A stretch of DNA of 33,435 nt, taken from a virus. How positions within the stretch are numbered: the first letter of the stretch is position 1; the number at the start of each line of letters is the position of its first letter. This document shows positions 5,791-33,435 of the stretch, piece after piece. The position numbers and the translations under genes were made by a program. The notes beneath the pieces were generated by a model. The model searched no databases and was not told the DNA's origin. It saw only the letters and a list, made by a program, of their open reading frames with translations. The stretch is from the IMG/VR virus record IMGVR_UViG_3300050132_000139, positions 1 to 33,435 of that record. One strand, 5' to 3'.

Positions 5791-6816
5791 TTATTCAAAT
5801 GGAGATACTTTGTCTTTGTATCCTGTAGGTTGAGATGGGTCTGGTTCCGACGCCGAGTTGATAAGATTGAATGGCGTGTACAACCCGTAAGCGCCAGCAC
5901 TCCAAGCAAAAAATTGCCATTGCTGTGTGGCCTGCACTTTATTCAGACTGATGGTCTGATATTCGGGTGGAGATTCCAACCATCCCACGAATGTCACAAT
6001 TCCGTTTTGGTCTTGTGAGTATCCATTGACATAAAGCGTTGCATTTGGGTTGCTGGCATTTTGCCAAACCGAACGAAACGCTCCCGTAGGAAACTGTGAG
6101 ATAATGAATGGAGGTATGTCTTGGAAGTTGTTTCCAGTTTTGGCGTATCTCTGAATCAATGCATCCGTTGTCAATAGCATTCCGTTGGCACTGTTATCCC
6201 ATGCCTGACCTGTCGTAGGGGTTGCGTTTGGATTGTAGGTGTTGCTAATAATGACACTTCTCTTCAATGTAGGGACGAAGATGTTTCTTCCTTCCACTCC
6301 TGACTTTTTGAGGTTGAATGCTATCAACGACGATAGATAAGGATACGTCGGGTCGGTCCCGACAATCTTAAACATATCATTCAGAGTCAACCTATCCTTT
6401 TTCATATTGTAATCTATGGCTATCTTTTCCTTGTAATTCAAATTACCAATGAAGGTTCTCTCAGCCGCCTCAAATATATTCTGTTTGACGGGGTGCTGAC
6501 TGTATTCCCATGTGGTCAGAGGTTGTGGTTCATTATCAATTGAATTGATGATGATGTCCACAGGGAATGTGATTGTGATTGTCCACAAATGTCCTCCTTG
6601 AATGCTGTATTCATATCCAAGCGTCTGACAAGATTTGGCAATATCGTTTACTTGTGCCTGAGTTCCTTTGTACACGGTTTGGCTCTCACCACCACTGCGT
6701 ACATTCCATCGTGATGTAGTTACACCTTGAACGGTGGCGTTCTTGATAATGCCTTGGAACACACTGTTATTCGGTGCTGTCCCCAACGTTTCGAGATTGT
6801 CTATTGGGCTGCTCAT
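5791..6816 (-). CDS. Probable distal tail protein
   Basis: This 341-residue ORF starts at ATG 6816, one base after the tape-measure stop. Its composition is beta-rich with WNVRSGGESQTVYKG near residues 38-52 and LWTITITFPVD about residue 100. The first gene after a tape measure is normally the distal tail protein in siphophages, which is the reason for the call; I recognise no family motif. A central stretch has KKDRLTLNDMFKIVG and VFVP-type beta strands. Confidence in it being a real structural gene is high, in the exact role low. Confidence 0.62.
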   Translation of the reverse strand: MSSPIDNLETLGTAPNNSVFQGIIKNATVQGVTTSRWNVRSGGESQTVYKGTQAQVNDIAKSCQTLGYEYSIQGGHLWTITITFPVDIIINSIDNEPQPLTTWEYSQHPVKQNIFEAAERTFIGNLNYKEKIAIDYNMKKDRLTLNDMFKIVGTDPTYPYLSSLIAFNLKKSGVEGRNIFVPTLKRSVIISNTYNPNATPTTGQAWDNSANGMLLTTDALIQRYAKTGNNFQDIPPFIISQFPTGAFRSVWQNASNPNATLYVNGYSQDQNGIVTFVGWLESPPEYQTISLNKVQATQQWQFFAWSAGAYGLYTPFNLINSASEPDPSQPTGYKDKVSPFE

Positions 6817-9200: not shown

Positions 9201-9887
9201 TTACCCTACTCTTTCTAAGACGTTCCTACATTGTTTATTAACGGCATCGTACCGCCAGAACTTCTTAGGCTTAAGAATGTCTATTATTTTGTTTTGCCTA
9301 ATCAGGTCTTTCTGTTGTTGTCTTTTGTGGTATTTAGAATCATACTCCAACACAACATTATGTTCTTCATCGTACCCGTCAATATAGAACAAATCGGTAT
9401 CTGTATGAATTTGATAATTTGGTTCAAACTTGAATCCCAAATCATTCCATTTTGACAACAATTCCAATTGACCTCTGTCGGTTTTGACTTTCAACCATTT
9501 GGAATTGTGAAGACCTTCTATATGTTTCTTACGTATATCAGGTCTGTGCATTGCTAGTTTTATGCAACCAGATAATTTTGTGTGATATTCTGGGTTAGCA
9601 TATCGTATGATACGTTCTTTCTTAGCAGCACCAGACATTTTTTCTCTAGTAAAAGGAGTGGTATTTTGTTTGATTAGTGATAACCTATCACAAAATTCAT
9701 CGCTTCTTTTACCAGCAGCAAATGTTTTTCCATAACTCGGATTACAATCCCCGAGTTTGGAACACGAATTACATATAGAATTGTGTTTGCTGCTACGATA
9801 TAAACTATCTTTATTGCAAAAATAGATTATGCATCCGCAATGCGGACAATTCTTAAAAAATGAAGTTGGTATCCTTCTGTTTCTCAT
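9201..9887 (-). CDS. Free-standing homing endonuclease, Vsr/PD-(D/E)XK-like, with zinc ribbon
   Basis: The 228-residue protein starts at ATG 9887 (MRNRRIPTSFF); a TTG start at 9923 is possible but that stretch matches a promoter. Domains: zinc ribbon CPHC ... CNSC with 21 residues between the pairs (residues ~13-40); a GKTFAAGKRSDEF / TPFTREKMSGAAKK region resembling NUMOD-type DNA-binding repeats; and a C-terminal nuclease core YIDGYDEEHNVVLEYD followed by YHKRQQQKDLIRQNKII. The D...ExD...H pattern fits Vsr-like or PD-(D/E)XK nucleases; the subfamily is uncertain. It is inserted between two paralogous tail-tube genes, abutting the downstream one. Confidence 0.82.
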   Translation of the reverse strand: MRNRRIPTSFFKNCPHCGCIIYFCNKDSLYRSSKHNSICNSCSKLGDCNPSYGKTFAAGKRSDEFCDRLSLIKQNTTPFTREKMSGAAKKERIIRYANPEYHTKLSGCIKLAMHRPDIRKKHIEGLHNSKWLKVKTDRGQLELLSKWNDLGFKFEPNYQIHTDTDLFYIDGYDEEHNVVLEYDSKYHKRQQQKDLIRQNKIIDILKPKKFWRYDAVNKQCRNVLERVG

Positions 9888-14819: not shown

Positions 14820-15965
14820 TTATTCGGCATGAGATATGGATTCGATAAAAGTATCGAAGTCAGATACGATTTCATCAGCAAGGTTCGCTTTCACAGCAGC
14901 TTCTCCGTCAAACAATTGACCTTGCATCATACTATCTTCGACTGGACCACGGTTAGACACAACCCACATCTTAAACTTTTCGTACTGTTTGTCAATATCC
15001 GATTGAATAAGTTTGGCATCTTCTTCGGAAAGTGGGATTTCTGGTTGCCCCATTGTCTTATGGTCCCCAGCACTGAAAATCTGAACATTTACCCCCTGCA
15101 TTTCCAATGCTTTACTCATATCAACGACTTTGGCATACACGCCAATGCTCCCCAATTCTGAGGAAGGAGTGCAATAGATACCATTCGTGGAAACCGCTAA
15201 ATATAGTGCGGCAGAGGCGCAGATGGTATCACAAAATGTGAATACTGGCTTCGTCTCAGTCAGTTTCGCAATCATATCACCACATTCTTGCACCCCAATG
15301 GAGACGCCTCCGGGGGAATTGATATGCATTACGCAGGCTTTGGTATCGGCATTGTAGGCTTGCTTGATTGCCTTGGTAACATCGTCAAGGTCCACACAAC
15401 CCATAGCCTTCATCTCTGGGCCGATGCGTTTGTGGAGTTCCCCGTCAATGTTGATAATGGAAACCCCGTCCCTCTCCGAATAGAGCGGAGAGAATTCGGA
15501 CATTGGGTTCCCAGAGAAGAGTTTCTTGGCAATCATACGGAGAGCGTGGACAAATCCCTTAGAATGCTTCATGTTATCGTCGTCATCGTCAGATTCCCCA
15601 CCGAAATCGTCTTCATCGGGTTCGTGATGCTTAATCTTGGAGCCGCATTTGGTGCAGTATTCCTCTTCTTCGGTTCCTACCGCTCCCGGCACTCCCGGCA
15701 AAGGCGCTTCCTTCTCTTCCTTACCAACTGCTCCCGGCACACCGGGGAGAGGAACATCCTTCATATGAGTTTCAATGTATCGCTTATCCATCAGGAGGAT
15801 TTGAATGTCATTTTTCATACTTTTCTTCTTGTTTTTTCTGTCCCACTGAGAGTAGCAAAATGCCGCCCGTTGTTTCTGGTCGGGGAAGGTCTTATTGGAC
15901 TCGGAATCGCCCATGCAGCGACTAATAAACTCGTCCTTCTGTTCGCCTTTACGTGGTTCTGGCAT
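14820..15965 (-). CDS. S49-family head maturation protease (lambda gpC / SppA-like)
   Basis: Start ATG 15965 ([17 protein letters not shown]) was chosen for its AGGAG site and because it begins four bases after the portal stop. It has 381 residues. The N-terminal 45 residues form a conserved module with [20 protein letters not shown] linker follows with two copies of [10 protein letters not shown] (residues ~72-81 and 88-97), a CTKC and acidic runs. The protease domain spans ~165-375: INSPGG (215-220), nucleophile Ser251 in [17 protein letters not shown], and Lys303 in GDHKTMG as the probable general base. It should cleave scaffold and capsid precursors during head maturation. Confidence 0.9.
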
Positions 15966-22434: not shown

Positions 22435-22513
22435 TGCGATGCTTTCTCCACCACACCCGATGGTATTCCCGATACGCCGCCCATCTCTGAGGGTCCAGAA
22501 TGCTCGGCGACAT
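22406..22513 (-). CDS. Alternative 35-residue frame overlapping 22431-22622
   Basis: This ATG at 22513 opens MSPSILDPQRWAAYREYHRVWWRKHRNEK, an aromatic/basic composition that looks more protein-like than the other frame at the same place. An upstream extension without start (VFRYSSQEIQTSQEI) also reads well. Either it is a real overlapping small gene or the region holds a frameshift joining it to the MKSSPAHLESMKRWRRANP start of the other frame. Confidence 0.4.
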   Translation of the reverse strand: MSPSILDPQRWAAYREYHRVWWRKHRNEKVKSNSL

Positions 22514-22622
22514 AATTTCTTGTGATGTTTGTATTTCTTGGGATGAGTAGCGAAATACAGCTATCGGGGTTGGCCCTGCGCCAACGCTTCATTGATTCCA
22601 AATGTGCCGGGGACGACTTCAT
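22431..22622 (-). CDS. Small ORF in a coupled chain
   Basis: This 63-residue frame starts at ATG 22622 inside an ATGA overlap with the previous gene and ends in an ATGA overlap with the next, the best argument that it is translated. Its N-terminus MKSSPAHLESMKRWRRANPD is protein-like; the C-terminal half (EHSGPSEMGGVSGIPSGVVE) is less so, and another frame there looks better. See the overlapping frame at 22406-22513. Confidence 0.45.
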   Translation of the reverse strand: MKSSPAHLESMKRWRRANPDSCISLLIPRNTNITRNYVAEHSGPSEMGGVSGIPSGVVEKASQ

Positions 22623-22798
22623 GAGCGAGGTACACGGATGTATAGCTTGTGTTTCAGTTTGTACGCCCGAAGCCAATGCTTGAGGTCAGCAATCAACACT
22701 GGGTTTCCAAACACGAGGTAAGACTTCCAACCGAGGGCTTTCTGTTTGTGGTAATAGTTTCTGCCTACGGCGTCGTATTGAGATAATGGTTTCTTCAT
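22619..22798 (-). CDS. 59-residue protein, first gene of the leftward transcript
   Basis: Starts at ATG 22798 with a weak AAGAG site. The sequence MKKPLSQYDAVGRNYYHKQK ... GWKSYLVFGNPVLIADLKHWLRAYKLKH is compact, basic and aromatic. It marks the left edge of the non-coding region at 22.80-23.36 kb and the head of the minus-strand gene chain. No family recognised. Confidence 0.6.
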   Translation of the reverse strand: MKKPLSQYDAVGRNYYHKQKALGWKSYLVFGNPVLIADLKHWLRAYKLKHKLYIRVPRS

Positions 22799-22894
22799 CT
22801 CTTATACATATAGGCGATTTTACCAAAACATCATGCTATGTATCTTTGTCTCCGAGGAAGGCAACTTGTCGTTCCTATGAAGAGATTGGTTGCT

Positions 22895-22914
22895 CGTGTA
22901 TCGCAGGATGCACG
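22895..22914 (+). repeat. Hairpin 1 (8-bp stem, GCAG loop)
   Basis: CGTGTATC at 22895-22902 pairs with GATGCACG at 22907-22914 around GCAG. The one non-Watson-Crick pair is T-G read on the plus strand, a legal G-U only in plus-strand RNA. Confidence 0.65.
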
Positions 22915-22922
22915 TAAAACCA

Positions 22923-22996
22923 CGGCAGCGAGTCCCACCGAGCAGGTACAGTGAAGGCAATCATTGATGACGGTCTTTTCGCTATGCTCGCTGCCG
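22923..22996 (+). repeat. Hairpin 2 (10-bp closing stem of a 74-base domain)
   Basis: CGGCAGCGAG at 22923-22932 is the perfect reverse complement of 22987-22996. Inside, ACCG (22937-22940) can pair with CGGT (22971-22974), giving a multi-part domain. Confidence 0.65.
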
Positions 22997-23010
22997 ACCC
23001 CATCTTTGCG

Positions 23011-23046
23011 TCCTCGGTAGGTTGAAGTACGCTTACCTGCCGAGGA
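23011..23046 (+). repeat. Hairpin 3 (12-bp stem)
   Basis: TCCTCGGTAGGT at 23011-23022 pairs with ACCTGCCGAGGA at 23035-23046; the only wobble is again T-G on the plus strand. The loop can add AAG/CTT around TACG. Confidence 0.7.
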
Positions 23047-23052
23047 CTGTCA

Positions 23053-23103
23053 GACCACCCCAATATGTGAATACGTAGATACAGGTGGATACTTGGGGTG
23101 GTC
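23053..23103 (+). repeat. Hairpin 4 (11-bp perfect stem)
   Basis: GACCACCCCAA at 23053-23063 is the exact reverse complement of 23093-23103. Three more A-T pairs (TAT/ATA) are possible past a one-base bulge. The loop includes an inverted TATCCAC. Confidence 0.7.
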
Positions 23104-23295
23104 CACTCCGTCACCCCAACAAACATTCCTATATTTTCTTTTTTAGAAGTCGTGTTAACGGAATGGTGGGCAGCAAAATGTTTTTTCTGGGGCAGCGTAG
23201 GGGGCTTCAAGGTATCCACTGTGTCAAATGTTTTGTTTTACAGGTCAGTATGCCTCAAAAATGCCTCCACGATATCCACCCAGAAAAATAAATGT

Positions 23296-23301
23296 TATAA
23301 T
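23296..23301 (+). promoter_or_regulatory. TATAAT -10 box candidate for the replication operon
   Basis: A perfect TATAAT stands 60 bases before the first plus-strand gene. The -35 position (23273-23278, TATCCA) is poor and coincides with a DnaA-box-like core, so the promoter may need an activator or be controlled by DnaA-type binding. A weaker alternative is TTGAGT (23312) with TGCTAT 17 bases later. Confidence 0.4.
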
Positions 23302-23361
23302 AAGTTGTGTGTTGAGTTGTTTTGTGTTATTCTGTGCTATGTAAGATTAGAAAGCATATTT

Positions 23362-23616
23362 ATGACAAACACAAATCAACAAATTGAGTTCGCCGCCAAG
23401 TGGTGTGCTAACTTCGTGAACCGAAACCGTGAGACATTGAAGACCGTAGGTATCCTGCCGATGGAAATCTATGCCTCGTATAAGGCAAGCACCGCCTTTC
23501 CTATTGGGTGGAAGAGTTTCTTCCCAATACTTCACATCTGCGGATGCTACAAGACACGTCTTCCCGACATGACCCATCGTTACACCATCGTTGAACCTCC
23601 TACCTACATCCAATAA
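23362..23616 (+). CDS. First gene of the replication operon, unknown
   Basis: The 84-residue protein starts at ATG 23362; the longer upstream reading runs through the hairpin region and is not credible. It has an N-terminal helix (IEFAAKWCANFVNRNRETL), then YASYKASTAFPIGWKSFFPILHICGCYKTRL. No ribosome site is evident. Placement directly before the helicase suggests a role in replication initiation, but nothing in the sequence proves it. Confidence 0.62.
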   Translation: MTNTNQQIEFAAKWCANFVNRNRETLKTVGILPMEIYASYKASTAFPIGWKSFFPILHICGCYKTRLPDMTHRYTIVEPPTYIQ

Positions 23617-23617
23617 T

Positions 23618-25117
23618 ATGCGTGTATCACTCACAGACATCGTTTCCAATTCTCGCTATCGTGCCAAGATACACTACAAAAATAGGATATTCGTGGACAC
23701 GCTGACTGGGGAGAAAATGAACATAAACATGGTGTTTGAGAAGTTGCGTGCAATTGACCCACAGCTTACAACTTCCGAACTACAGGCATACCTTAATACT
23801 GTTGATATTGAAGTTGAACCTGCCAAACCACAAATCAATGTTGACGAGGCAATAAATCGGGCAATGGAATCACTCGGGGCAATCTTCAAGACGGATGAGG
23901 ACGGAACAATGACATTCTTCTATGGTAGTATGCCAATCAAGGATGAGGATTTGGCGATTGAGATTTGCTCCCAACGCAACGACGAAGGGTTGGCTGATAT
24001 TCCAAAAGAGAAAATCATTGACCGGCTTCACTCCAAGCGCACCAAGGAACGTAAGCGTTTGTTTGAGAGGCTAACGTTGGATATAGCATTTGATGCTGCA
24101 CTCGGCGATAAATCCAATGAGATGGCGGAAGAGATTATGAGATTGGTATGTGGTCCTGATTACAAACCAATTTACGCCACGATTCTGCGACAGGTTGTGT
24201 GGTTGGTGAAGAAGAAGTTCCGTGGCGATGACCCACGCACCATTCTGTATCCCATCTTTGTTAATCTCTATGGACAGGGGCACACAGGCAAATCCAGTTT
24301 GTGGGAGTTCCTATTCTCGGTCATCCCCAAATCGCTGTGTAAAAATGAGAACAACTCCGACCACGCATTCAATGACCCACGCACCTACCACTCCTTTATG
24401 GAGAAGCTAGTGATTATCTTCGGCGAACTTAGCAACATGGATAAGGTAAGTATAGAGAAATTCAAGAATCTGATTGACATGCTTCGCATCTCAATGCGAG
24501 CGTTGAACTTCAATCGTGATGCTGATGGCCCAAACTTCGCCACATTGGTTGGCACATCCAATCGTCATCTACGAGACATTATCAAGGATGGCCCCGACGT
24601 TCGTAAGTGGATTGAGATACCATTCTATTATCACGGAAACAAAGCGAGTCAACATAACAAGTCATTTCTCCCACTCAAAGCATATGACTATCGCTCGTTT
24701 TGGAAGTCCGTAGATGTGGATGGTCCGTGTCCTCTCGAATCCGTCTATACCGAGTTTTGCGAGTTGGCAAGCAAAGTTTGTGGCAGCGGATTGACTACTA
24801 CCGAGTTTTTCCTAAAGGAGTATGTGGACCACAACCAATCCATTTTACTTGATGGACCGCAAACCAAAACGTTGGATGAAATCTATTCCTCCTATAAGCA
24901 AGCGGTATCATCTATGCGGATAGGTCAACAGAAACTCGCCGAAGCAATGGTGAAGACGGGGTTTGTTAAACGAGAGTTCAACTACGGGAATAAGTGGCAA
25001 ATTCCCCGTCGCCACGAATGCTGCCTATTCACCGACGAAGAGTTGGCGGAATACAAGACGAGTGTGGACGCAAAGATGACTCCACTCGAAACCAAACTAA
25101 ACGCCATTCTAATATGA
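23618..25117 (+). CDS. SF3/VapE-like replicative helicase
   Basis: The 499-residue protein starts at ATG 23618, one base after the previous stop. The C-terminal half is the helicase: Walker A GQGHTGKS (219-226), Walker B strand LVIIFGE (264-270), sensor GTSN (312-315) and a following Arg in DVRKWIEI (about 329) as arginine finger candidate. This is the virulence-associated protein E / superfamily 3 arrangement. The N-terminal ~200 residues lack primase motifs; the primase is a separate gene just downstream. It should unwind the origin for host polymerase. Its stop overlaps the primase start (ATGA). Confidence 0.88.
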   Translation: MRVSLTDIVSNSRYRAKIHYKNRIFVDTLTGEKMNINMVFEKLRAIDPQLTTSELQAYLNTVDIEVEPAKPQINVDEAINRAMESLGAIFKTDEDGTMTFFYGSMPIKDEDLAIEICSQRNDEGLADIPKEKIIDRLHSKRTKERKRLFERLTLDIAFDAALGDKSNEMAEEIMRLVCGPDYKPIYATILRQVVWLVKKKFRGDDPRTILYPIFVNLYGQGHTGKSSLWEFLFSVIPKSLCKNENNSDHAFNDPRTYHSFMEKLVIIFGELSNMDKVSIEKFKNLIDMLRISMRALNFNRDADGPNFATLVGTSNRHLRDIIKDGPDVRKWIEIPFYYHGNKASQHNKSFLPLKAYDYRSFWKSVDVDGPCPLESVYTEFCELASKVCGSGLTTTEFFLKEYVDHNQSILLDGPQTKTLDEIYSSYKQAVSSMRIGQQKLAEAMVKTGFVKREFNYGNKWQIPRRHECCLFTDEELAEYKTSVDAKMTPLETKLNAILI

Positions 25118-25938
25118 ATCTCACGTTCTCAATCTTAGAGTCAGATTGCGTTCACAAAGACAAGCGGGGAGCACCCGTTCGCATAGAGGGCACGGTATCG
25201 GATGCTGACCTCTATGATTTGACGGCTTGGGGTCTCACGCACCACATCGTTATCGCCTCGTTCCGAGAAGCATATCGGTGTAGTGCGTTCTGGTTGGGGT
25301 GTGATATGATGGCGATGGATTTTGAAGACGAGCATACGACTGCCGACCAAATTCACAATCAGTTGGTCGCTCTCAATTACAACCACGCCATCATCGGCTC
25401 AACTAACCATCTCAAGTTCAAGAACGATGGTACTGGTGTGCGTGAGCGATTCCACGTCTTCATCCCATTCACGAAGCGGGTCACGGTCAAAGAGGACTAC
25501 AAAGAGATTGTTCGCTACTTCATTCGCCAGCAGAAATGGGTAGTGGACATGGCAGCAAGTTGTGACGTGTGCCGCTATTATTTCAAGCACAGTATTGCTC
25601 TGCATATTTATGAGGATGGGAGGGATTTCCCCATTGAGGATTACAAAGAATTTGTTGAGATACATCGCCGAATGCGAGAAGAGAAAGCCAAAGATGCTGC
25701 CGAGCGTAGCAAGCAGTTCGCCCACATTCCAGCTATTAAGCAGTTTGAAAGGACTAAGCATTTCCGAATACTGCGGCGTGGATTCAGCGGCGAAGGATGC
25801 TATAGTTTGCGTTGCAGTGTAATTGGTGCAATGAAAACTTGTGGCTTGACAAACGGCGAGGCGCATGATATGTTTGTCAAGTACAATGCATATGGCGGCA
25901 AATTTGAACGCCGCAATCTTGACAGTCTATTTGGGTAA
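25114..25938 (+). CDS. Archaeo-eukaryotic-type (PrimPol-like) primase
   Basis: The 274-residue protein starts at ATG 25114 in an ATGA overlap with the helicase. AEP-like elements: acidic motif MDFEDEH (Asp69, Glu71, Asp72), STNH with His99 (motif II), and RFHVFIPF (111-118) as the following strand. Such small primases often pair with SF3 helicases, usually fused and upstream; here the order is helicase then primase in two genes. It is likely to make primers for host DNA polymerase. The motif assignment is by eye. Confidence 0.72.
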   Translation: MNLTFSILESDCVHKDKRGAPVRIEGTVSDADLYDLTAWGLTHHIVIASFREAYRCSAFWLGCDMMAMDFEDEHTTADQIHNQLVALNYNHAIIGSTNHLKFKNDGTGVRERFHVFIPFTKRVTVKEDYKEIVRYFIRQQKWVVDMAASCDVCRYYFKHSIALHIYEDGRDFPIEDYKEFVEIHRRMREEKAKDAAERSKQFAHIPAIKQFERTKHFRILRRGFSGEGCYSLRCSVIGAMKTCGLTNGEAHDMFVKYNAYGGKFERRNLDSLFG

Positions 25939-26019
25939 AAACAAAACCGACAACCCCACCCATAAAACACAAGCGGGAAGTCAAACAGAAACAGTAGAGT
26001 AACATCTACATCAAAACAT

Positions 26020-26526
26020 ATGATAGCAAAATATACACCTAACACGTTCATTCCCTGCCCCGAATATACGGGCGTGGCTCGTATCGTTGATGTGACCGAC
26101 ATGAAGCCTCACACTTCCCAGTACGGAACCAAAGACCAATTTCGTTACATTCTCGAAGTGGACGTAATCAAGAACAAGGAGGCGGGTTCTCGCTTCACTG
26201 TTGCCACGGCTCCGATGTCGTTGAGCCTGCACGAGAAGGCAGCACTTCGCAAGTTCGTGCAGAAGGTTCTTGGTCGTGAGTTGACCGAGAAGGAACTTGC
26301 CGAGGGAGTTGACACCGAAACACTCGTTGGCAAATCAGTCAACGTGGTCGTGGAGCACGTCAAATCGGCAGATGGCACAAAGACCTACAGTAATCTCGCC
26401 TTCGTTCAGGTGGCAAAGACCGAAGCCAAGTGGGAATCGGAGTATGTCCGCTTCAAGGACCGTGAGGATTATGAGAAGGATGCTGCTGGCGAAGAAGCAG
26501 AAGAGTCCGTTGCCAAAGGCAAGTAA
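26020..26526 (+). CDS. SSB-like / replication accessory protein
   Basis: The 168-residue protein starts at ATG 26020. The beta-rich first part begins KYTPNTFIPCPEYTGVARIVDVTDMKPHTSQYGTKDQFRYILEVDV, followed by LSLHEKAALRKFVQKVLGREL, LVGKSVNVVVEHVKSADGTKTYSNLAFVQV, and an acidic tail (EDYEKDAAGEEAEESVAKGK). I recall this layout from phage proteins annotated as replication or single-strand-binding; the acidic C-terminus is typical of SSBs that recruit partners. A terminator follows its stop. Confidence 0.7.
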   Translation: MIAKYTPNTFIPCPEYTGVARIVDVTDMKPHTSQYGTKDQFRYILEVDVIKNKEAGSRFTVATAPMSLSLHEKAALRKFVQKVLGRELTEKELAEGVDTETLVGKSVNVVVEHVKSADGTKTYSNLAFVQVAKTEAKWESEYVRFKDREDYEKDAAGEEAEESVAKGK

Positions 26527-28307: not shown

Positions 28308-28340
28308 CCCCGCCAGCGGTTTTGGCGGGGTTCTTGTTGT
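28308..28340 (+). terminator. Rho-independent terminator ending the replication operon
   Basis: CCCCGCCA (28308-28315) pairs perfectly with TGGCGGGG (28323-28330), loop of 7, followed by TTCTTGTTGT. It lies 26 bases past the last plus-strand gene in the convergent gap. Confidence 0.82.
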
Positions 28341-28849: not shown

Positions 28850-29626
28850 TTATCCACTAAACGCCCCTGGATAATGTATTTTAAAATAGTTTAAATACAT
28901 ATTTTTTATCTCAGCAGCACTAAATGCATAATTCCAAATCGCTATTTCTATTATACCACCTGTGAAGGGTAAACTACTTTGGTAATCTCCTATTTCATTC
29001 AAATTAGAACCACCAAATCCTGCCCATGCTGCTGACGTTCCTTTAGCAGTTTGATTTTCATAAAAACGTGCGGTGCCAGTATTATCCCGTTGAAACCAAC
29101 AAACAACTGGCTTGCCAGCCGCAGTGCTTAAAGTGGAAGAAATTATAGTAACAAATCTATTATACATACTAATAGTATTAGCCGCCGACTGGAATTTTCT
29201 TATTTGTAAGTTTGTGTCACTACTTCCAATTAACATTCCATCCGCTGACGAATAACATACTATAGCCATCGTAAAGATTGCTGAGCTAAGGTCTATTGGA
29301 TAACACCGAAGATTCTGACCAGCAAAAACAACCACCGACTGTGAAAACACAGATGAACTTACTTGATATTTTGGCCCCGTACTGGTGGAACCTGTAATCA
29401 CATTCCCATGAGTATCTATTGACGCCCACGGTTTATTGCTACCTGATATTACTGTAAGATTTGGTAAAGTTAGAGAATCGGCCCGCCACCAAGCAATCAA
29501 CGGATAATCACTCGGAGCCGGAGTAGGAGATAAAGAACTAGTATCAAGCAAGATTGAATATACAATACTAGACGGCAATGTATATCGCCTTGATTCTCTA
29601 TGAAGTATATTTGATTGTTGTAGCAT
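28850..29626 (-). CDS. Lectin-like (LamG-type) virion adhesin, copy 2
   Basis: Start ATG 29626 (MLQQSNILHRESRRY) follows the previous stop by four bases; 258 residues. It aligns along its whole length with the protein at 29631-30389: YPLIAWW, GSTSTGP.YQ.SSSV, FTMA.VCYSSADG, ISSTxSTxAGxPVVCW, FYENQTAxGTSxAWxGF, and NMYLNYFKxxYPGAFSG. Strand pattern and 'GGIxEIxIWNxAFSxxEIKNMYLNY' are typical of concanavalin-like LamG domains. Probably a surface glycan binder at the tail tip. Confidence 0.75.
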   Translation of the reverse strand: MLQQSNILHRESRRYTLPSSIVYSILLDTSSLSPTPAPSDYPLIAWWRADSLTLPNLTVISGSNKPWASIDTHGNVITGSTSTGPKYQVSSSVFSQSVVVFAGQNLRCYPIDLSSAIFTMAIVCYSSADGMLIGSSDTNLQIRKFQSAANTISMYNRFVTIISSTLSTAAGKPVVCWFQRDNTGTARFYENQTAKGTSAAWAGFGGSNLNEIGDYQSSLPFTGGIIEIAIWNYAFSAAEIKNMYLNYFKIHYPGAFSG

Positions 29627-29630
29627 ATTA

Positions 29631-30389
29631 TTAACCACTAAATGCACCGGGATAGTTCAATTTAAAGTAGTTTAAATACATATTTTTTACTTCATCCAAA
29701 CTTAACACATATCTCCATATAATTATTTCAGATATACCCCCCACAAAAGAAGTCGGAGCAGAGAGATTACCACACATCCGGTCAAGTCCAGTTGATGAAA
29801 ATCCACGCCATGCTACAGAAGTTCCTCTGGCGGTTTGATTTTCATAGAAATTTACAACTCCTCCCGAACTGACGTGTTGATACCAGCACACTACAGGATT
29901 TCCAGCAACAGTAGAAAATGTTGAGGAAATTGCCTCAGTAACATCATCATATATACTTATATTATTAACACCAGAACGAAATTTTCTTACTTGAAGGTTA
30001 GTAGTGCTATTGCCAAATATCACGCCATCCGCTGATGAATAACATACTACTGCCATTGTAAATAACGAATTAGTAAGATTCAATGACGGAATTACAGCAA
30101 GATTCTGTGAGTTAAATACAACAAGTGAATTGTTCAAACTCGGAATAACGGAAGAAGTTATTTGATATGTTGGCCCAGTAGAAGTTGACCCGCTTGCTAA
30201 ATAACCTCCACCATCAATTGTTCTCCAAGGAACTAAACTTCCAGACAACACCGTTGGATTCGCATAGGTTATTGCACTGGATTTCCACCAAGCAATCAGT
30301 GGGTAGCTGTATGGAGTAACAGTATTGCTCCCATAGTCATTTAAATAGAATCGTTTTCCTCCACGGTGCAATGTATGTAATTGAGACAT
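29631..30389 (-). CDS. Lectin-like (LamG-type) virion adhesin, copy 1
   Basis: The 252-residue protein starts at ATG 30389 (MSQLHTLHRGGKRFYLNDYG). It is a tandem paralogue of the next gene, with the same C-terminal GGISEIIIWRYVLSLDEVKNMYLNYFK ending YPGAFSG and same central motifs. The 'I.W...LS..Ei..m...y' end is the usual last helix-strand of LamG-type sugar-binding domains. The short identical C-terminus may be a peptide for attaching to a fibre. Divergence between copies is concentrated in the middle loops, as expected for receptor binders. Confidence 0.75.
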   Translation of the reverse strand: MSQLHTLHRGGKRFYLNDYGSNTVTPYSYPLIAWWKSSAITYANPTVLSGSLVPWRTIDGGGYLASGSTSTGPTYQITSSVIPSLNNSLVVFNSQNLAVIPSLNLTNSLFTMAVVCYSSADGVIFGNSTTNLQVRKFRSGVNNISIYDDVTEAISSTFSTVAGNPVVCWYQHVSSGGVVNFYENQTARGTSVAWRGFSSTGLDRMCGNLSAPTSFVGGISEIIIWRYVLSLDEVKNMYLNYFKLNYPGAFSG

Positions 30390-33181: not shown

Positions 33182-33435
33182 TTACTTCTTGATTCCAATG
33201 AGCACCACGTTGGGAGAGCGTATTTTTGGCTCTGCCGAGGCAGTCACATTGAAGGAAACCGAGCAACTTGCCACGAATCCATAGTAGGTGCTCGGCTCAA
33301 TAAAGTTGGCACGAATGAGGAATCCCGCAGATTGAGATACGTACAGGTTGAAGAATGTGGACAGGTCGGGTTCGGTGTATTCCGTAAGAGCGTACTCAGA
33401 AATAAAGATATGCCCCGAAGATGGAGCCGAGGCAG
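33182..33435 (-). CDS. Sugar O-methyltransferase-like protein, C-terminal part
   Basis: This is the other end of the gene at 1-706, in the same frame; the stop TAA is 33184-33182. Bases 33295-33420 equal 1-126, so the two records overlap, and unique C-terminal coding begins at 33294: PSTYYGFVASCSVSFNVTASAEP ... SPNVVLIGIKK. The last 15 bases of the window differ from 127-141 at five positions. Complete coding order: 706 to 1, then 33294 to 33182. Confidence 0.68.
   Translation of the reverse strand, partial: ASAPSSGHIFISEYALTEYTEPDLSTFFNLYVSQSAGFLIRANFIEPSTYYGFVASCSVSFNVTASAEPKIRSPNVVLIGIKK
33295..33420. repeat. Contig-end repeat, right copy
   Basis: Identical to 1-126; see left copy. Confidence 0.9.

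Follow-up and report, generated by a model that had tools for sequence, protein, structure and literature searches.

Replicons that encode a primase and an SF3 helicase and carry a stem-loop as their putative origin have been documented, and such an origin has been proposed for Bordetella phage BIP-1, in comparison with pRN1, where the stem-loop is required for replication (PMC4234260). In both, the large stem-loop lies 3' of the replication gene, and in BIP-1 it is located roughly in the middle of the genome. In another well-described case, RSF1010, the RepB' primase binds the ssiA hairpin exposed on one strand (PMC4434180), and each strand carries one such site (ssiA or ssiB). Consecutive hairpins in non-coding phage DNA near early genes are also known in a different capacity, namely in the put RNA of phage HK022, a leader of ~70 nt with two stem-loops that is contained within the early-promoter transcript and acts on RNA polymerase (PMC9378689). 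Here we compare these systems with a cluster of four hairpins in a viral genome.

The window analyzed, which is the whole stretch of DNA and corresponds to the whole virus record of an IMG/VR-type collection, is 33435 bp long and carries at its ends (1-139 and 33295-33433) a direct repeat of 139 nt with 97% identity; the genome is therefore likely to be nearly complete, with a circular or terminally redundant form. The leftward genes include those for a GpA-type terminase, the portal, the head protease and the major head protein, and the replication operon is transcribed rightward. Among known phages, the best identity of the terminase is ~25%, to Verrucomicrobia phage P8625 and others, and this phage is far from all of them. 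Several other features of the genome deserve mention. Two adjacent leftward genes (28850-29647 and 29631-30389) share stretches of ~75% similarity and apparently arose by tandem duplication; a 48-nt tandem duplication in the head protease gene (15660-15755) encodes a repeated 10-letter peptide; a GC-rich, near-perfect hairpin between converging operons (28308-28330) is likely a terminator; and a long imperfect foldback within a leftward endonuclease-like gene (9600-9790) has a plus-strand RNA z of -4.4 and is the top window of a 150-nt scan of the genome.

The divergent operons are separated by a gap of 563 bp (22799..23361) that is non-coding according to the ORF list and codon scores. On its left side, the gap is flanked by a leftward gene for a 59-aa protein (22619-22798), the first of the left operon, and on its right side by the rightward operon, which begins at 23362. 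The four hairpins follow one another in this gap, at the places given in an earlier note on this DNA, which also described the region, correctly, as non-coding; the stems are 8, 10, 13 and 11 bp long, the third being one pair longer than the 12 bp noted before. Hairpin 1 (22887..22922, plus strand) consists of an 8-bp stem (22895-22902/22907-22914) with the loop GCAG and one T-G pair (T22899-G22910), extended beyond a 3x3 internal loop by an outer 5-bp helix (22887-22891/22918-22922). Hairpin 2 (22923..22996, plus) has a perfect, GC-rich 10-bp stem (22923-22932/22987-22996) enclosing a loop of 54 nt with a predicted internal arm. The 13-bp stem of hairpin 3 (23010..23047, plus; 23010-23022/23035-23047) includes the second T-G pair (T23018-G23039) and is followed by an inner AAG/CTT helix with a TACG cap. 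Hairpin 4 (23053..23103, plus) has a perfect 11-bp stem (23053-23063/23093-23103) and a 29-nt loop that contains GTGAATAC and GTGGATAC. The 3' arm of this last hairpin (23093-23100) has two mutually exclusive partners, given that a third CACCCCAA copy located downstream (23112..23119, plus) can pair with it in place of the 5' arm.

The region 22885-23125 folds on the plus strand with an energy of -99.5 kcal/mol (z ~ -5.1), which none of 300 shuffles reaches, and, scored against shuffles, this fold ranks first among 276 strand-windows of 240 nt genome-wide, in a scan whose window phase was set on the hairpin element and thus favours its rank. Compared with sequences in which the loops are shuffled and the stems retained, the plus-strand energy of the region is average, so that loops and spacers add no folding and the stems alone account for the extreme values of the whole region. 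By stem count alone, the cluster is uncommon, although not to an astronomical degree: of 200 shuffled genomes, 5 contain three stems of at least 10 bp inside 250 bp at some position. This frequency, along with the 150-nt scan, in which several coding windows outscore the hairpin region and some fold about as unusually, would be compatible with the absence of any function, the hairpins being a chance cluster or the remains of a former gene that happen to fold. We consider this very improbable because stem length, G+C content and strand bias combine into a genome extreme and because the reading frames yield no protein-family match. The open frames of the gap score like non-coding DNA, with the exception of a 24-codon plus-strand ORF (22951-23025) that is too short to judge; it starts with GTG, spans hairpins 2 and 3, and has an unusually gene-like codon score. 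By eye, it resembles the start of a tail-completion protein; it matched no family, and the decayed-gene interpretation was set aside, as was a 114-aa minus-strand frame across the cluster, the codon score of which is that of non-coding DNA.

The hairpin cluster is real and strand-biased. In the same region, the z of the plus strand is -5.1 vs. -1.9 for the minus strand, a difference that exceeds those of all 300 shuffles and is the largest among 138 windows of 240 nt. The earlier note pointed out that both T-G pairs become G-U only in plus-strand RNA, which is indeed the case, and took this asymmetry to favour a folded RNA. Two transitions on the same strand are a 1-in-2 event, which makes this a weak argument; the strand preference itself, as the z values show, extends beyond the two pairs. 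With the stems fixed, the excess is modest: 5 of 400 trials attain the observed asymmetry when the wobble orientation is random, and 24 of 400 when it is fixed. The further step, from strand bias to RNA rather than a DNA cruciform, holds in part: the bias is genuine, and plus-strand single-stranded DNA fits it as well, since under DNA parameters the plus strand again folds better (z -4.9 vs. -2.9 for the minus strand). Thus, the plus-strand preference fits either a plus-strand RNA or exposed plus-strand ssDNA, and the evidence specific to RNA is moderate. It does not fit as readily with inverted repeats that act in double-stranded DNA, either as operators for a regulator of both operons or as hairpins that insulate the transcription of the operons from each other. 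The location between divergent promoter candidates and the perfect complementarity of the arms of hairpins 2 and 4 are in line with such a role, but the strand asymmetry would be left unexplained, loops ranging from 4 to 54 nt are ill-suited to a single dimeric regulator, the arms of the four hairpins have no sequence in common, and none of the hairpins has a U-tract after it on the plus strand. Altogether, a double-stranded role appears decidedly unlikely.

Transcription signals bear on whether the hairpins belong to an mRNA. A pattern scan detected a candidate extended -10 element for the leftward operon (TGGTAAAAT, 22817..22825, minus strand, one mismatch), one for the replication operon (TGTTATAAT, 23293..23301, plus strand), the gap's single perfect match to the extended -10 pattern, located 3' of all hairpins, and a weak rightward candidate (TGAGATAAT, at 22779) 5' of the hairpins; all of these are pattern predictions. 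The two best promoter predictions lie on either side of the hairpins, each oriented outward, so that, if those are the main promoters, the cluster is probably outside both mRNA leaders. The proposal in the earlier note of a leader made rightward, before the replication operon, accordingly loses its footing, with the perfect element 3' of the hairpins and only the weak candidate 5' of them. Intrinsic termination was also considered and rejected: there is no plus-strand intrinsic terminator in the region, no hairpin is directly followed by a T-run (a U-tract 3' of the stem) on the plus strand, and the two weak minus-strand terminator matches in the region occur at chance frequency.

The weak candidate at 22779 does leave room for an RNA, and a structured plus-strand RNA, either a small RNA made independently or an extended leader of the replication operon, comes a close second among the interpretations, as a real possibility that we nevertheless find somewhat doubtful. 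Such a molecule could be an antisense RNA, a put-like antiterminator or an origin-associated RNA. The plus-strand fold and strand difference that top their respective scans, the wobble pairs that are G-U solely in plus-strand RNA, the UACG loop of hairpin 3, the alternative partners of the hairpin 4 arm, and the precedent of the put RNA all agree with this possibility; in particular, the CACCCCAA / TTGGGGTG / CACCCCAA trio would permit switching between two hairpin states. The likeness to put has a limit in that the hairpins described here are upstream of the best promoter candidate. An RNA is also disfavoured by the weakness of the only upstream promoter candidate, by the missing plus-strand terminator after the hairpins, by the lack of any contribution of loops and spacers to folding and by the lack of a homologue for covariation. 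In addition, no known RNA family was recognized: Rfam gave no match at or above the gathering score in the window, and only chance-level ones in the gap. The most specific version, a new plus-strand RNA of ~240 nt that is transcribed from a promoter of its own, located within or next to the leftward gene for the 59-aa protein, and controls replication through the CACCCCAA-trio switch, seems unlikely to us.

The operon next to the hairpins (23362..26526, plus strand) encodes an 84-aa ORF, a helicase, a primase-like protein and an initiation protein. The helicase (23591-25117, plus) matches DUF5906 above the Pfam cut-off, and nothing similar to it was found in phages or plasmids. The primase-like protein (25114-25938, plus) was assigned by one PHROG match (PHROG 1883) and motifs read by eye, and its AlphaFold model, made without an alignment, has a pLDDT of 40. 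The last gene (26020-26526, plus) encodes a probable NGO0469-family replication-initiation protein (E 2e-18, just below the curated cut-off).

Several compositional signals in and around the gap speak for an origin. The cumulative GC skew, whose amplitude is matched by 8 of 5000 block permutations, is lowest at 22487, ~0.4 kb from the hairpin cluster, and highest at 6356, nearly half the genome away; this is the pattern of a bidirectional theta origin, with the skew minimum at the origin and the maximum opposite to it, partly confounded here by gene direction. Among the leftward genes alone, the skew differs between the halves by permutation (p 0.022), and a rank test is not significant (p 0.155); the skew is partly tied to the direction of transcription. 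Four of the 13 iteron- or DnaA-box-like TATYCAC heptamers of the whole window (23067 and 23085 on the minus strand, 23213 and 23273 on the plus strand) are confined to 213 bp (23067..23279), and the hairpin 4 loop contains two of these; this clustering is only suggestive given that the motif was picked after the sequence had been viewed. With respect to the DnaA box TTATNCACA, GTATTCACA (23066) is the sole sequence near the hairpins that differs by no more than one base, and the other three heptamers match solely at the 7-bp core; hence, no cluster of near-consensus TTATNCACA boxes, as would be expected of a DnaA-dependent origin, is found near the hairpins. An AT-rich block with 28% GC, a possible unwinding element, follows the hairpins (23120..23159), and a second one precedes the operon (23280-23359).

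Comparison with the described replicons reveals partial similarity. As in pRN1 and BIP-1, where a primase and an SF3-type helicase are encoded, large hairpins in non-coding DNA are adjacent here to genes for a putative primase and a helicase that may be of this type; unlike in those systems, there are several hairpins, primase and helicase are separate proteins, and the hairpins are found on the 5' side of the operon. Neither the helicase nor the primase-like protein shows BLAST similarity to the BPP-1 primase. Because of this position and the lack of detectable similarity, membership in that group is not claimed. With RSF1010, the locus shares repeats, AT-rich DNA and short single-strand hairpins near replication genes, although the four hairpins share a preference for the plus strand, in contrast to the distribution of the ssi sites over both strands. 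The iterons of RSF1010 are true 20-bp repeats, whereas those found here are only 7-mers. By this analogy, the element might at most work like the pRN1 and RSF1010 models.

Searches for relatives returned little. With the helicase, the primase-like protein and the terminase as queries against viral contigs, genome contigs, phages or plasmids, only two close relatives were retrieved, both of the terminase (~65% identical), on contigs (L002 and L003) that start ~650 bp upstream of the terminase gene and do not include the gap. No homologous gap locus was found in the viral contigs or genome contigs, and a search with a Walker-A DNA pattern gave no match. The pattern of hairpin 3 occurs in 33 contigs, which were compared by BLAST and ten of which were folded, with the other hairpins in none of them; the triple pattern of hairpin 4 occurs in one contig that is unrelated and made of repeats. 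One unrelated viral contig found through the hairpin 3 pattern (L014:6535-6640) has two successive hairpins that share a GAGGTGGGGCAG-type loop.

We favour, tentatively and at a little less than an even chance, a replication origin or control region in which the hairpins form on the unwound plus strand. This reading is favoured by the adjoining operon with its helicase, primase-like and initiation proteins, by the GC-skew turn, the clustered heptamers, the AT-rich blocks and the predicted outward promoters outside the hairpins, by the preference for plus-strand folding with DNA parameters, by the documented putative stem-loop origins of primase/SF3-helicase replicons, and by the binding of the RSF1010 ssiA hairpin to its primase. 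On the opposite side are the tie between skew and gene direction together with the rank test, the heptamers, which were chosen post hoc and are imperfect as DnaA boxes, the 5' position of the hairpins where pRN1 and BIP-1 have theirs 3' of the replication gene, the absence of BPP-1 primase similarity, the reliance of the primase identity on one PHROG match and motifs by eye, and the G-U wobble, which is more at home in RNA. In such an origin, a phage initiator, which could be either the DUF5906 helicase or the NGO0469-family protein, or else the host DnaA would bind the TATYCAC repeats, and the adjacent AT-rich blocks would melt. The unwound plus strand could then fold into the four hairpins, the working molecule being ssDNA, and, by analogy with the ssi sites of RSF1010 or the stem-loop of pRN1, the hairpins might position the phage primase and helicase, with two forks departing in opposite directions.

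Should the element turn out to be a structured RNA, it would add a new regulatory RNA to those of phages. If it is an origin, as we tentatively propose, it would provide a concrete origin for a phage lineage that is almost without relatives in the collections searched, and would extend the idea that phages with a primase and a helicase initiate replication at hairpins rather than at classical iterons.
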